Source: Heliocybe sulcata (Eukaryota > Basidiomycota > Agaricomycetes > Gloeophyllales > Gloeophyllaceae). Taken from it: a stretch of DNA of 64,000 bases. Below the pieces are notes generated by a model. The model worked only from the letters and a program-made list of their open reading frames with translations. It made no database searches and was not told the origin of the DNA. Position 1 is the stretch's first letter. Each line of letters begins with the position of its first letter. The stretch covers positions 459,327 to 523,326 of the forward strand of contig ML213511.1 in the NCBI GenBank assembly GCA_004369045.1, in the 5' to 3' direction. Positions 1 through 6,696 of the stretch are shown here, piece by piece. The position numbers and the translations under genes are program-made.

Positions 1-64
1 CCTTCCACGCGCGGCATCATAGTGTGCAATCAACGACGTCTGTGCTACCCCTGTTCGTTCCAGA

Positions 65-641
65 ATGACCGTCAGCGAGGAACCCGCGCAAGAGGACATC
101 AAACCCAAGGTCAACCTCTCGGTCATTTATGACGGACAATGTGAGTTGGAATAGGTTGGCTGCACGTTATAGCTAAAGCGACTGGGGAATGGTAGCCACC
201 ACAGTGAAGATGAAGATTAATACGCCCCTGAAGAAAATCTTTGATGCAGTAGAGGTGAGTCTAAATCTCATGTCGGACGTGTCACCTGTACTGTGCTCAA
301 TGGTCGTAACATTGCAGAAGAAATTCGCTGTGCCAGAAGGTGAGCGCTCAACGAACCTTACGGATCTGCAGAAGTGATTTTTGACTTGAGTAACCTAGGA
401 ACGCTGCGATTCTTCGCAGACGACAAGCGGTTGAGGCCGGAAGAGACGCCAGCAGATGTAAGTCCGGTGCCAGTCTCATCCTCCCGTCTTCGTACTGACC
501 AGGTCCCTCAACTGGCAGGTCGGCTTGGAGGACGGTGACCAGATTGACGCGCATCTGGAGCAGGTACAGTCAGGTTACTTTTATGCATGAATTCGTGGCT
601 GACATGGGCTTACACAGCTTGGCGGAGGCTCTTCGTGCTGA
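65..641 (+). CDS. smt3: SUMO (ubiquitin-like modifier, Smt3 family)
   Basis: Small ubiquitin-like modifier that is conjugated to lysines of nuclear proteins. Exons read by eye: 65-140, 196-254, 318-339, 399-457, 519-563 and 618-641. They join in frame to 94 codons. The protein has a short charged N-terminal tail, then the SUMO beta-grasp with landmarks TPLKKIFDAVE, LRFFADDKRLRPEETPAD and LEDGDQIDAHLEQ. It ends LGGGSSC, so a diglycine is followed by a short tail that a Ulp-type protease would remove. Length and C-terminus fit the family. The start is the only upstream ATG in frame with the fold. A second SUMO gene follows 220 bp downstream on the same strand. Identity is near certain; the first intron acceptor could shift by a few bases. 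Confidence 0.93.
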
Positions 642-861
642 CCTTTTCACTACCCTGGATGGAATATTTGGTTGCTGACTCTGCTCTCTACTTACTTCTC
701 TATTAATTTATCATCTTCCCGATTCCGTTCCCAACACTAATGCCGACTGGTGGGTCGTAATGATCCTGTGTGACGCGACGCGAAAGGGCGCCGTGACGTT
801 GGCGTCAAACAAGTTAGCCGTTGCTCGGCTATTGATAGGCCTTTCCCTCGTCTCTCGCGAA

Positions 862-1419
862 ATGACGGATACACCCTCTTCCTCTGCAGATCGAGCACAC
901 CATCGGAAACCCAGCCTCAATATCCAGCTGGTCTTTCAGGACAAGGGTTTGTCACGTATGATGGCATGCATAGCACGCATCGGAATTAACGCGCTCTAGT
1001 CATACCCATGAGACTACGACCGTACACCTCTGCGCAAAAGATCATGGACACGGCGCTGGTAAAGTCAATCCTCTGTTAAAACATTGAATGGTCATGAAAC
1101 GGTATGAAGCAAATGTGGCATCTGGAGCCAGGTGAATAGCCAGATGCTTCCCCCGCTCGACCTTGTGGACGTATTTCCGTAGGTTTAGTTCGCTTCGTCT
1201 ACGGTGGACAGCGGATTCGGGAGTACGATACGCCAGAGAAGGTAGACCAGCAACTCTCACAGGCGACCGCGTACTCATCTCACATCGGCAGTTGAACATG
1301 GAGGACGGCGACCAAGTCGACGTCATGGTCGAGCAGGTAAGTCCTCGTTGTATCGAGAGCTTGTCCTCGCTGATCGGGGCATAATCGACGGTGCCAAGTA
1401 CGGGGGTTCAAGTCCTTGA
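862..1419 (+). CDS. Second, divergent SUMO-like gene (tandem paralogue)
   Basis: Exons read by eye: 862-946, 1000-1058, 1110-1131, 1183-1241, 1292-1336 and 1399-1419, joining in frame to 96 codons. The four internal exons are 59, 22, 59 and 45 nt, exactly the sizes in the SUMO gene just upstream, so this is a tandem duplicate that kept its intron positions. The protein keeps the fold: IQLVFQDK, MRLRPYTSAQKIMDTAL, VRFVYGGQRIREYDTPE, LNMEDGDQVDVMVEQ. It ends YGGSSP, so it retains the processing diglycine. The tail and the second strand differ strongly from copy 1. The last exon rests on an AAG acceptor and is the weakest join; if it were wrong the diglycine would be lost. Whether it is conjugated like SUMO is inference. 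Confidence 0.82.
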
Positions 1420-1647
1420 TTCACGACGCATAAAAGATTCGCTTCTGTGCATGCCCGAGTGCTGTGAAGCTGTGTTGTTTCTTGCATAGCCGTCCTTTCT
1501 CTTGTATGGTTGTCTTCACAGATGAAATATGTCGTCTGTCATCCCTCCCCGGATGCTAGCAGAGGTTCCAGCTATTGGGCATGTTCAAGGGAGAGCAGGA
1601 ACCTGCAGTTGCGACAAAGATAAAACAGTTTGACACACCGCACTAAG

Positions 1648-2925
1648 TCATGACTCCGCCTCCTTGGCAGTTCGCCTTTTGGCTGCCCACTCCTTAGCCT
1701 TAGCCCGCCTCGCAGCCTTCAAAACCTCCGCGTCGTCTTTCATCGCATCCTCAGTAACAACACCTTCACCTTCCTTGGCCACCATCTCGTCAGTCACCTT
1801 CACTGTGTCATCTTTATCTTCAGCATCCTCATCTCCATCACTTTCCCCATACCCCGCCAACCCCCCAAGTGCCGCTTCTCCACTTCCTTTCTTCCCTCCC
1901 CCCTCCTTCTCCATTCTCACCCTCGCCTTGACAGTCCTCCAAGCCCTCGCCCACCTGCCCCTCAGAAATGCAAACCTCTTATCAGCACCGTGATTAGCAA
2001 GAATACGCATCTCGAGCTGCGCGGGGTTGGGCGAGTTTGATAAGTGTGCAGCGGTCCGGCGCATGAGATCCTTTTGTGGCTCGTCGGGTTCTTCGTCGCT
2101 GTCTCCCCATTCCTCCTCTTCATTGCCACCTTTAGCAGAGCCCTCGGCGTCGCCGAGAGCGCGTAGGCGCTCTTCTCGGGCAGTGTCCATCACGCGTCGG
2201 CGCTTTTGGCGGTGATAGTCGTCGAGGTCGGGACCGGTGAGGAAGAACGTGTCTTCGGCGTCAGAGGGGAGGTCGGACCAGCCGGAAGCGGAGAGTGCGG
2301 GAGAGGGAGGGGAGGGGGATGGCACAGTGGGAATGGAGGAGAGGAGGAGGCGGGCATCATATCTGCCAGTTGGGACGTTCAGCGGTGCCCAGACCGAACG
2401 ATTGAATGAGAACCCATCATGCCTCTAGAATACATGGTACTTGTGGAATAGATTCCAGCTCAGTCGCAATAACGGAATGAAAAAAGGAATAGCAATGTAT
2501 GTATTAGGGGCCCACTTAAGAACAGTACAAGACGGAATCACGAATGCCGTTCTCTTAGGGTTGCTAACGTACCTGTCGACCCAGACGTCCTTCCGTTGTC
2601 TCTCTTCGTGATCCTGATCCATATCTGCCCCACTGTCTCCCCACCGAATCAAGCCGTCCCCCGCCTTTACCTCTCCGTCTACTCGGACGACCTCCAGCGA
2701 TTCCGCGGCCGCCCATGCTCGAGGGCCTCGTACGAGGTCCGCTTCGTATGCTTGAATAAAAAGGGCAGGATCTGGGGCAACTGTCGACGCGACATGCTCT
2801 TGCTCCTCGTCGGATTGAGAATCGTAGCCACGGTCAGGATTGTCGGAATAGCGGGCCCGTCTATTCTTCTGGCGAGTCCTCCCTGAGCGGTATTTCCTCT
2901 TCGTTGGGCGTGGTATCGAAAGCAT
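1648..2925 (-). CDS. Acidic nuclear-type protein with a SURP-like segment
   Basis: Two exons on the minus strand, 2925-2573 and 2362-1648, joined across a roughly 210-nt intron with GT/AG ends; 355 residues. The N-terminus is basic (KRKYRSGRTRQKNRRARY) and then turns acidic. The middle has the stretch DVWVDRYDARLLLSS across the splice. The C-terminal half carries a segment patterned like the SURP/SWAP module (RTAAHLSNSP, then LEMRIL and KRFAFLRGRW), followed by a charged low-complexity tail rich in Glu, Lys and Ala. SURP modules occur in splicing factors, so a role in RNA processing is possible, but the match is by pattern only. I do not recognise a named orthologue. The Ser-rich plus-strand frames over the same DNA are shadows. 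Confidence 0.65.
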
Positions 2926-3395
2926 CAGGAGTCGCCGGAGACACAGCTAGCAGGCTAAGAGCAAGGGTAACTAGATAATTAATTACATTAGTTTTAGCGC
3001 TTTGTTAAACACACTACTCAATAACGTGTTAATGAGGAGGACCGGATCTAGATCTGCTGGTACATAGACCTAGTAATAACAGTTAAGACTTCTCGTACCC
3101 ATCACCAATGTAAAGGAGGCACACCTCTCCATCTGAATATCCAGTAACAGAACCAGGTGCTCTAGATTGGGATTGGTGATTGTATATATATTTTGATAGG
3201 TTTTTGGTTTTCTATTGTGATTAAATATTTTACGCACGTTAATAACATCAATATTAATAACAACGTCAAAACCGTACTCTTTAGTCGCGCAGAGCTCTCA
3301 GATCTCAGCGCTTACCGCTTGACACGACACCGACACGTATCCCTTCCGCTAGCAATTAATTCTGTGCTCAGACTGAACGAATGCCTGCTTGAATA
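2926..3395. other. Divergent promoter region, no gene seen
   Basis: Shared upstream DNA between the minus-strand acidic protein and plus-strand Ste24. It is AT-rich at 3190-3260, unlike the surrounding GC-rich coding DNA. I see no coding frame with intron signals. Confidence 0.5.
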
Positions 3396-5340
3396 ATGGA
3401 TTTCCTGCATACGCTGCTAGGGAGCATACAAAACAAGCTATCCTGGGTTCAGGTCCAGCCCATAAACTGGAAGCTCTACGTGCAATCGTTCTCCTGGGGC
3501 GTCACCCTTTTCGAATCTTACCTTCTGTAAGTCCCTGTCGCTTCTATATAATCGCAAGTAATATTGGACTGATTTATCTCAGCTTGCGCCAGTACCCTCT
3601 GTACTCCAAGACTGCACCTCCTCCGATTCTGGAGAAGTACTTCGAAAAGGATACGTTCGAGAAGTCGCAAAAATATGGCAAGGACAAGGCAAAATTCTCT
3701 CTCTTCGCCGGACTCTACAAACAGGTTGTCGATTCGGCTATGATCCAATATGGCGCATACGCCTGGTCTTGGGAAATTGCTGGACGGATTCTAAGCAGGT
3801 TTGGATACGGTGCGGGTTATGAGGTGCGTCTCCTCTTCCTATATGACCTGGTACACTCCAGAAGCAAGAAAAATCTGCGTCTGGCCATGTAGATTTCCCA
3901 GTCAATCCTGTTCTCCGCCGTACTGTTCTTCATCTCGTCCATCCCCTCCCTCCCGCTCTCGGTCTACCAAACCTTCGTCCTGGAAGAGAAACACGGCTTT
4001 AATAAGACTACCCCCGGGCTGTTCGTTGCGGACATGGTAAAGGGCTGGGCAGTCGGCTTCGCCATCGGCGCTCCCTTCCTCGCTGTGTTCTTGAAGATAT
4101 TCAAGTGGGCAGGAGACCGGTTTGTTCCTTGGTTAATGGGTTTCCTGTACGTTCCTATCCGCTCCATCTCCTTGCAGTAGAGTGTCACTAAGTGTGTGTC
4201 CGTGTAGCTTGGCCTTCCAGATGAGCATGGTCGTGCTGTACCCGACTGTCATTCAGCCGCTGTTCAACAAGCTGTCACCCCTGTCCGAGGGCGCGCTCCG
4301 CGGGAGGATTGAGTCGATGGCATCGAAGCTCAAGTTCCCACTGAAGCATCTGTATGAGATTGACGGCTCAAAGCGCAGCTCGCATAGCAATGCATACTTT
4401 TTCGGGCTTCCCTGGGTAAACGGTTAATTTGCTGTTCATACGAGCATGCCGCATTTATGCTTTCAATTGGTTTATAGAGCAAGCACATCGTCATCTTCGA
4501 CACTCTGATCAAGGAAAGCCCTCCAGAGGATATCGAGGCGGTTTTAGGTACGTCCACTCCACCCTGCGTCCTCCACTGCCGCCGAGTCATATTGGACTAG
4601 CGCACGAACTCGGCCACTGGTACTACATCCACCCAACAAAGCTCCTCCTCATCTCCCAAGCGCACATCTTTACCATCCTCTCGCTGTTCCCCGCCTTCCT
4701 GCATGCCCCGCCCCTTTTAGCGTCGTTTGACTTCCCATCCCAAGTTGCCAAGAACCCGCCGACGGTTGTTGCGTTTTTGCTCTTCCAGGTACCCACTCTT
4801 CATTTATCACCTGCATGGCGAAGACCGAGGCTGATATGATAACGTTTTACTAGATGATCTTGACACCCCTCGAAGCTGTCGTAGGCATTGGCCTGAACTT
4901 CATAAGCAGGCAGTTCGAGTGGCAGGCAGACCGATTTGCTACCGAGCTCCCCGCCAAGCTCTCTGCTGATAGTGCTTCTGGTGAGCCATATCTCACTTCC
5001 AACAACGTGATATTTACTGATAACATGCGTCTGTGCGTTCAGGTAAGTTGCAGTTGGACGAAGTGGGGAAGAAGGAGGTCGACGAAATGGCGGATATGGG
5101 TGAACGGTTGAAGAGAGCGTTGATTCAACTGCATGTGAAGAATTTGTCGACGGTTTGGGTCGATTGGCTGTGAGTTTCCCTGTCTGATTCCGCTGTGGTA
5201 TCCTCGAGGGCTAACCTGATGGCATTAGGTACTCGGCATACCATCACTCGCACCCGACGTTGATGGAAAGGCTGAAGGCTATTGAGGTGCTGCAGAAGAA
5301 TGTCCCAGTGTTCACAGTGGATGCGAAGAAGGAGTTGTAA
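3396..5340 (+). CDS. ste24: CAAX prenyl protease 1 (Ste24 family zinc metalloprotease)
   Basis: Integral ER/inner-nuclear-membrane zinc protease that removes the AAX tripeptide from farnesylated proteins and makes the second cut in lipopeptide pheromone precursors such as a-factor. Nine exons: 3396-3526, 3583-3823, 3893-4146, 4208-4415, 4478-4547, 4601-4788, 4854-4980, 5043-5169 and 5229-5340. The start gives the typical N-terminus MDFLHTLLGSI. Family landmarks include LPLSVYQTFVLEEKHGFN, YEIDGSKRSSHSNAYFFG, the zinc site HELGHWYYIHP (HExxH, with the His codon just after the intron at 4548), and the third ligand region FEWQADRFA. It ends in YHHSHPTLMERLKAIE, the conserved C-terminal motif. 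All expected membrane segments and motifs are present, so it looks intact. Mushrooms use farnesylated pheromones, so a mating role is expected from family knowledge. Confidence 0.97.
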
Positions 5341-6233
5341 TCTCGGGTTGATGATTGGTAATAAAATTCGGTTGCGTCGCTCTACATTGACTGGACAGGG
5401 CGTGATGTGGCGGAGCTGGCTGGGTGCGTTGGGTGTCAGTCACTCTTCAAGCCTTGAGGAACACCGGGTGTACCCAGCAATAATAAACTGTCCAGACGCT
5501 TCTGTTGTAGGAGAGATGCCTGAATATGGCCTGAGGTGACAGTGTATCGCTTGTAGCGCCTTCGGTGAACTGAATGCTCACTGCACATTCAGGCAGTGAC
5601 GATAGTAACGGTACGCCAGCCAGTCCTCACTCAAGTGTTATCTTCATTGAGTGTTCCCTCAGTAGCTTGCCTCCTCCGTTTTCTCGCCAGAAATTATCAA
5701 GCTGTTCACCTGCAATCCGTATCGTGTGCGGACAGTCTCATATAATGTGGACCAGCGCCTCAACGGTCCTTCGCCTGTCGGACTGGGGCAAATTTTCCAG
5801 ACATCATCGACATCAGTACAAAGTTGGCGTTTTCAGGAGACAGTTGCGGACTCGTAGGGACTCGCTGCGTCCGCAACTTCCAGTTGGATCCCGCATTCCA
5901 TGTCCTTCAATCACGTTTGCTTCCATTCCACCTCGACACCAGCTCTTCCCCGCTGTATTCCCTTCGTCGCTAAATATATCCTTGGAGATATGTGATTGGT
6001 CTGTCCAATCAATATCTCACTTTTTTGTTCTAAATGTGCGGTGCTTTACTAATAACCTACCATTGCCTTTTCTCGCTAATCGCCTCAAAGTATTGACAGC
6101 ATGCTCTGCGTTCAGCATCGGCCTTCTGAATAAAATGCTCCAGGTCGAACTGGGTGCCCCATTGCGCTCTTCTGCCAGTACCTCTACCAGTCTGTTGACA
6201 GTCGCTCCTTCCTCTGCACATTCCTTCATCAAA
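5341..6233. other. Upstream region of the hydrophobin gene
   Basis: About 0.9 kb between Ste24 and the hydrophobin. A long frame runs through it into the hydrophobin first exon, but the part before 6234 has no conserved content and the hydrophobin ATG at 6234 begins a proper signal peptide. A TATA-like run (taaatatatcc) lies near 5970. Confidence 0.45.
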
Positions 6234-6696
6234 ATGTACGCCCTCATCACCAAGCTCTTCACCGTCTCCTCCTTCATTACTCTCGCGGTTGCGAGTCCCC
6301 TCACCGCGCGCCAGACCAGCCAGTGTAACACCGGGAGCATCCAGTGTTGCAAGCAGGTGCAAACGGCTGGCTCCCCTGGCGTAGCTAGCCTCGCTGGTCT
6401 GCTGGGTATTGTGTTGGATGGGTTGGATATCCCTGTCGGGATTCAGTGCTCGCCGTTGACTGTTGGCGGGATCGGCGGAGGTGCCCAGTGGTGAGCGACT
6501 ATCAGCCATATGCGATTGAGATGCTGACTGGGCGCTTATATATGATCCTGTAGCAATGCTGCACCTGTTTGCTGCGAGAATAACGCACAAGGTAGGACCA
6601 TACGTATTGAACCCGGTGTGGCAGGTCCTGACTCTCTTCGGGCAATAAGGTGGCCTCATTTCCGTGGGATGCATCCCTATCACCATCGAACTGTGA
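6234..6696 (+). CDS. Class I hydrophobin
   Basis: Small secreted amphipathic protein that self-assembles at hyphal surfaces and air-water interfaces. Three exons: 6234-6490, 6554-6591 and 6650-6696, giving 113 residues. The N-terminus [14 protein letters not shown]... is a signal peptide ending near ASPLTARQ. The eight-cysteine hydrophobin pattern is complete: C-x6-CC (CNTGSIQCC), a lone Cys in IPVGIQC, a lone Cys split by the first intron, CC in PVCCENN, and a last Cys in VGCIPI. The hydrophobic spacer after the first CC is long, as in class I. Intron positions around Cys 5 and before the C-terminal strand are typical of basidiomycete hydrophobins. It stands alone here; no second copy is visible. 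Confidence 0.95.

Follow-up and report, generated by a model that had tools for sequence, protein, structure and literature searches.

This locus raises the question of what two SUMO-type genes that lie next to one another, and that both differ greatly from the canonical SUMO of the same genome, would do in a fungus. The window, by which we mean the whole 64-kb stretch of DNA analyzed here (C9:459327-523326), belongs to a genome of 31.6 Mb in 51 contigs, and the genome was searched together with it. Only one SUMO is present in yeast, the principal model among fungi (excerpts of PMC5319795 and PMC10778024), and vertebrates have several (excerpt of PMC10778024). The first-pass annotation generalized that fungi usually have one SUMO gene; this view is weakened by the mushroom Coprinopsis cinerea, for which two SUMOs, CcSumo1 and CcSumo2, were published, the tagged forms of both being located in the interphase nucleus (excerpt of PMC10287680). 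We regard the pair in the window as probably representing tandem, accelerated and specialized SUMO modifiers beside a canonical SUMO, which is the most likely of the readings considered below. Tandem, diverged SUMO duplicates and a mushroom with two SUMOs are already known, and the pair adds a further case to them.

Gene models of the tandem pair

The two genes are arranged head to tail on the same strand, and the stop codon of copy 1 (641) is separated from the ATG of copy 2 (862) by 220 bp. Both were rebuilt as six-exon models (Table 1), and these bear out what the first-pass annotation had claimed, namely two SUMO-type genes 220 bp apart on one strand. With the stop codons included, the exon lengths are 76/59/22/59/45/24 nt in copy 1 and 85/59/22/59/45/21 nt in copy 2; the internal exons of 59, 22, 59 and 45 nt reported earlier for both copies were reproduced exactly. 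The reading frames are open, all ten introns (50-63 nt) possess GT-AG ends, and the positions and phases of the introns are common to the two copies (5/5).

The predicted proteins are MTVSEEPAQEDIKPKVNLSVIYDGQSTTVKMKINTPLKKIFDAVEKKFAVPEGTLRFFADDKRLRPEETPADVGLEDGDQIDAHLEQLGGGSSC for copy 1 and MTDTPSSSADRAHHRKPSLNIQLVFQDKVIPMRLRPYTSAQKIMDTALQMWHLEPGLVRFVYGGQRIREYDTPEKLNMEDGDQVDVMVEQYGGSSP for copy 2. The fold is preceded by approximately 15 residues in the former and approximately 18 residues in the latter, an extension of a kind that ubiquitin lacks. The last exons encode LGG followed by GSSC in copy 1 and YGG followed by SSP in copy 2, in other words Gly-Gly plus a short tail that is predicted to be removable, and the C-termini LGGGSSC and YGGSSP are as the earlier annotation gave them. 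A di-SUMO polyprotein generated by splicing copy 1 to copy 2 was rejected, as the acceptors inspected by reading were out of frame with the phase-0 donor of copy 1. The last exon of copy 2 also contains the tRNA-like letters GGTTCAAGTCC, which we treat as a coincidence because ARAGORN found no tRNA in positions 1-6000.

Table 1. Coordinates of the SUMO-type genes and associated features (window positions unless a contig is given)
Feature	Position	Strand	Description
Copy 1, SUMO-type gene	65-641	+	six exons, 94 aa, C-terminus ...EQLGGGSSC
Copy 1 exons	65-140, 196-254, 318-339, 399-457, 519-563, 618-641	+	
Copy 1 microexon, 22 nt	318-339	+	gene model, chain scan
Intergenic stretch, 220 bp	642-861	+	copy 1 3' end and predicted copy 2 promoter region; contains GACGCGACGCGAAAG
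Copy 2, SUMO-type gene	862-1419	+	six exons, 96 aa, C-terminus ...EQYGGSSP
Copy 2 exons	862-946, 1000-1058, 1110-1131, 1183-1241, 1292-1336, 1399-1419	+	
Copy 2 microexon, 22 nt	1110-1131	+	gene model, chain scan
Canonical SUMO gene	C9 ~266.3-266.9 kb (locus L023)		~193 kb upstream of the window; five-exon model, 100 aa

We scanned both strands of the 64-kb window for open chains with exons of exactly 59/22/59/45 nt, sizes that were derived from the models of copies 1 and 2 themselves, joined by GT-AG introns of 45-80 nt. Two chains were recovered, and they were copies 1 and 2. Widening the introns to 40-120 nt added one minus-strand chain, the alignment score of which was -47 against either copy, and under the same wider range no such chain was present on either strand of ten other loci (65,583 bases). 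Ten order-1 Markov windows, scanned with introns of 45-80 nt, contained one chain in total. When copy 1 and copy 2 were aligned without gaps over 62 residues, the score was 95 (z of 9.3), a value that 0/20,000 shuffles reached. Thus, on the basis of the chain scans and the shuffle test, we regard the matching exon sizes as reflecting homology.

The canonical SUMO and the divergence of the pair

Both predicted proteins scored over the cut-off of 23.8 bits for the Pfam family Rad60-SLD (40.2 for copy 1 and 35.5 for copy 2; 85.4 for the canonical SUMO) and likewise over the cut-off of 25.4 for the Pfam ubiquitin family (31.5 and 30.5 for copies 1 and 2, respectively). The best PDB matches of copy 1 were SUMO2 and Smt3, and those of copy 2 were SUMO2, fly SUMO and SUMO3, with SUMO1 and Smt3 matching as well. 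Judged from these profile and structure-database matches, copies 1 and 2 carry one SUMO-type beta-grasp domain each.

The canonical SUMO protein starts with MSDQEDQATQ, contains FFKIKRNT and ends with ...EQVGGSA. Within the fold (Smt3 23-98), 45/75 of its positions are identical to human SUMO2 and 41/75 to Smt3, and its length equals that of CcSumo1 (CC1G_04810; 100 aa; excerpt of PMC5200907). None of its four introns is exactly at an intron site of the pair, the last one being 2 nt off the last one of the pair. The Rad60-SLD search of the whole genome returned 19 matches, of which 11 sit in two repeat-like runs on contigs C1 and C4, taken to be ubiquitin genes, and two are exons of the canonical SUMO gene. 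Since copies 1 and 2 themselves were absent from the 19 matches, the search gives a minimum count where genes with short exons are concerned. Altogether, there are at least three predicted SUMO genes in the genome, namely the canonical gene and the pair in the window, against the two SUMOs published for C. cinerea (excerpt of PMC10287680).

The identities with the canonical SUMO are 28/75 for copy 1 and 29/74 for copy 2, and the two copies are identical to each other at 23/74 positions. In the domain tree of eight rows, the branches of the copies (3.15 and 3.52) were much longer than that of the canonical SUMO (0.15); no branch was starred, and the placement of the three SUMOs was unsettled. 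The first-pass annotation had presented copy 1 as ordinary and copy 2 as the odd one. This contrast fails, because there is a canonical SUMO elsewhere on the contig, from which both copies have diverged to a similar extent, and because both are long-branched.

Residues at the functional faces

The functional positions were taken from Table 1 of PMC5319795 as excerpted (Smt3 numbering; N85 in that table is D in the Smt3 sequence compared), and similarity was scored by a lenient rule in which alanine is grouped with hydrophobic residues. Over Smt3 positions 23-98, copy 1 is identical to Smt3 at 30/75 positions and copy 2 at 24/74. Identities with Smt3 at the E1-contact positions amount to 6/9 in copy 1, 5/9 in copy 2 and 5/9 in the canonical SUMO, compared with 3/9 in human SUMO2. 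On the Ubc9 face they are 8/15, 5/15 and 9/15, and at the Ulp contacts 8/18, 8/18 and 10/18, in copy 1, copy 2 and the canonical SUMO, respectively. Among the 11 positions of the SIM groove, copy 1 has 4 identical and 9 similar, copy 2 has 2 identical and 8 similar, and the canonical SUMO has 8 identical and 11 similar. The altered groove that the first-pass annotation ascribed to copy 2 is confirmed by its 2/11 identities, yet 8/11 positions are similar under the lenient rule. The core is similar at 14/16 positions in copy 1 and 16/16 in copy 2, with 8 and 5 identities, respectively.

Both copies keep R71, T43, F65, the EQ pair and GG (Smt3 numbering). The substitutions relative to Smt3 are A at Y67, T at I35 and Y at S29 in copy 1, and P at F36, M at R55, G at D68 and A at both L45 and F52 in copy 2. 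In yeast, the Smt3 mutation Y67E is lethal, and L45A and F52S are conditional mutants (excerpt of PMC5319795). Residue counts of this kind cannot prove activation, since human SUMO2 is not charged by yeast E1 (excerpt of PMC5319795). No site of the strict psi-K-x-E pattern was found in copy 1, copy 2 or the canonical SUMO, and chain-building therefore does not separate the pair from the canonical protein. Like Smt3 and human SUMO2, which end with EQ or QQ-x-GG, the copies have a SUMO-type domain and keep EQ-x-GG, but they differ from both in the altered SIM groove and Ubc9/Ulp face.

The changed SIM, Ubc9 and Ulp faces might also be explained if one or both copies were free, non-conjugated SUMO-like regulators, acting as competitive decoys for SIM proteins or for the back face of Ubc9, an alternative that deserves weighing and that we find unlikely. 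A precedent is human SUMO4, which has diverged and may function without being conjugated; a proline near its C-terminus blocks efficient maturation (excerpt of PMC10778024). However, both copies retain EQ, the R71 equivalent and GG with a tail, and a cleavable tail would be dispensable in a decoy. At the position that we take as the equivalent of the SUMO4 proline, both copies possess Q and thus differ from SUMO4. Of the two options that the first-pass annotation left for copy 2, a specialized modifier and a decoy, the former is the likelier, and the latter is not needed given the retained GG, EQ and R71 equivalent and the lack of a SUMO4-type proline.

SUMO enzymes and the proposed role of the pair

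The searches for SUMO enzymes matched single exons and may overlook genes, so that the counts given here are lower bounds. One locus in the genome matched the E1 UbL domain (PF14732), and one matched the Ulp family (PF02902), the latter with two exon matches. A human UBC9 sequence was used as the query for Ubc9 and gave four exon matches of 57-82% identity to a gene on contig C3. The best E-value for this query belonged to a different E2 on contig C36 (44% identical), and the other E2s were weaker. We infer from the percent identity that the gene on C3 is Ubc9. As one E1 UbL locus, one Ulp-type locus and one Ubc9-like gene were detected, no enzyme dedicated to the pair was seen among the E1, Ulp and Ubc9-like matches of the exon-by-exon genome search.

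If the copies are specialized modifiers, as we think probable, both would be transcribed, a Ulp-type protease would cleave off the residues beyond GG, loading would depend on the SUMO E1 and Ubc9 that serve the canonical protein too, and the range of their targets would be narrower. Since the SIM groove and the Ubc9/Ulp face are changed, readers should see the pair as unlike the canonical SUMO. The pair would then serve as auxiliary, specialized SUMOs beside a housekeeping SUMO, comparable to SUMO3 and SUMO5 beside SUMO1/2 in Arabidopsis. The division of labor among SUMO paralogs has been studied in vertebrates and plants; a fungus with one conserved and two fast-evolving SUMOs would allow it to be tested in a simpler organism, where a single E1, a single Ubc9-like gene and a single Ulp-type locus, as far as detected here, would serve all of the SUMOs.

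Flanking genes and upstream motifs

The upstream neighbors of the pair encode a WD40 protein and a mitochondrial carrier. Downstream, there are two open frames on the minus strand, for which Pfam gave no match at E 0.01, and a gene for a CAAX prenyl protease. The stretch 641-861 found only itself in the genome search. There are four ACGCG boxes, two of them as GACGCG, in the 250 bp leading up to copy 1 (window 1-64 plus the end of locus L022), and two ACGCG boxes, both as GACGCG, in window 642-861 upstream of copy 2. The canonical SUMO gene has neither ACGCG nor GACGCG boxes within the 250 bp that precede it. The four GACGCG boxes in the ~470 bp upstream of the copies compare with ~0.3 expected, where the rate is that of the whole window and not of promoters, and the motif was picked post hoc after the sequence had been seen. 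GACGCG boxes are, we presume, linked to G1/S. The pair might constitute a separate, second SUMO channel in the fungus: two modifiers whose SIM groove has been reshaped would be charged by the common E1 and E2, be recognized by partners of their own and be co-induced around G1/S, although we see only a small chance that this extended version holds.

Origin and persistence of the pair

Duplication followed by fast change is the simplest origin of the pair, because the copies lie head to tail only 220 bp apart and share five introns to the base; an old tandem duplication would have given rise to two SUMO paralogs evolving much faster than the canonical SUMO. The same arrangement argues against the copies being anciently separate SUMO lineages, in which the ancestral introns persisted and were changed in the canonical gene. 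This scenario, which is compatible with the functional reading, appears improbable to us, even though the copies are less alike than each is to the canonical SUMO, the tree does not settle all three SUMOs, and the canonical gene has its last intron just 2 nt from that of the pair.

Copies 1 and 2 differ at 35, 23 and 41 of 65 sites at codon positions 1, 2 and 3, respectively. Their dN is 0.63-0.66 and dS is saturated, and thus dN/dS gives no gauge of purifying selection on the pair. We simulated neutrality with substitutions only and no constraint on 96 codons and five GT-AG pairs. At 0.5 substitutions per site, 0/20,000 runs kept the open frame together with the five GT-AG pairs; at 0.3, the frequency of such survival was 0.0002. 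The force of the simulation comes from the splice sites, since the open frame alone survived in 9.0%, 4.1% and 2.0% of the runs at 0.3, 0.5 and 0.95 substitutions per site, respectively. Intact frames and splice sites in the predicted genes speak against long neutrality and not for any particular function.

Part of copy 1 has a counterpart on the same contig: positions 4040-4139 of locus L024 (minus strand; C9 ~1087 kb, ~628 kb away) match its exon 1 and 5' flank at 77/100 nt. We rejected this locus as a third tandem-type copy, as a lax tblastn gave no convincing further exon, and regard it as a relic of the first exon of copy 1 because the match is confined to exon 1 and its surroundings. The relic, the long branches of the copies compared with the canonical SUMO, several substitutions in the core and on the surface, and the tandem SUMO pseudogenes of Arabidopsis (excerpt of PMC6680281) would all suit a decaying pair of relaxed copies en route to pseudogenes, but this is very unlikely, given that the frames and the GT-AG ends of 10/10 introns are intact despite saturated divergence and that the core stays similar under the lenient rule.

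Parallels to the pair are also known from plants. Tandem duplication and divergence of SUMO are known in Brassicaceae; in Arabidopsis, SUMO3 was born in tandem, SUMO5 has diverged, and SUMO4/6 and SUMO7/8 are tandem pseudogenes (excerpt of PMC6680281). The likeness to the pair lies in the tandem SUMO duplication, SUMO3 and SUMO5 being 48% and 35% identical to SUMO1, respectively (excerpt of PMC6680281). In contrast, Arabidopsis is a plant with genome duplications, and the pair described here stands at 28/75 and 29/74 to its archetype and has an intron pattern of its own. Among the matches listed by a literature search, with subscription journals largely outside its scope, none dealt with fungal SUMO genes in tandem. 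Searches for relatives of the pair in collections without fungal genomes gave pattern matches, none of them confirmed, in viral contigs and, for copy 2 only, in genome contigs.

Other SUMO- and ubiquitin-like loci

Three further loci with domains of this kind were observed in the genome. At locus L026, two neighboring frames (3543-4076 and 5733-6242; C5 ~1253.5 and ~1255.7 kb) contain a ubiquitin/SUMO-like domain and then KPVIYLFSP..., and score barely over the cut-off for the ubiquitin family and under that for Rad60-SLD. The first frame reads ...VELVGG followed by KPVIYLFSP, with Gly-Gly at the junction, and the second lacks Gly-Gly there; the two possibly encode a fused ubiquitin-like protein. 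At locus L029 (3063-3521, minus strand; C1 ~821 kb), a Rad60-SLD domain of 40.4 bits is apparently split by a long insert, and the domain end in the open frame is without Gly-Gly. Locus L028 (3042-3548, minus strand; C7 ~268 kb) carries a C-terminal SUMO-like domain of 31.4 bits, which ends with ...DGDQVEVVGL and is presumably of the Rad60/Esc2 type.
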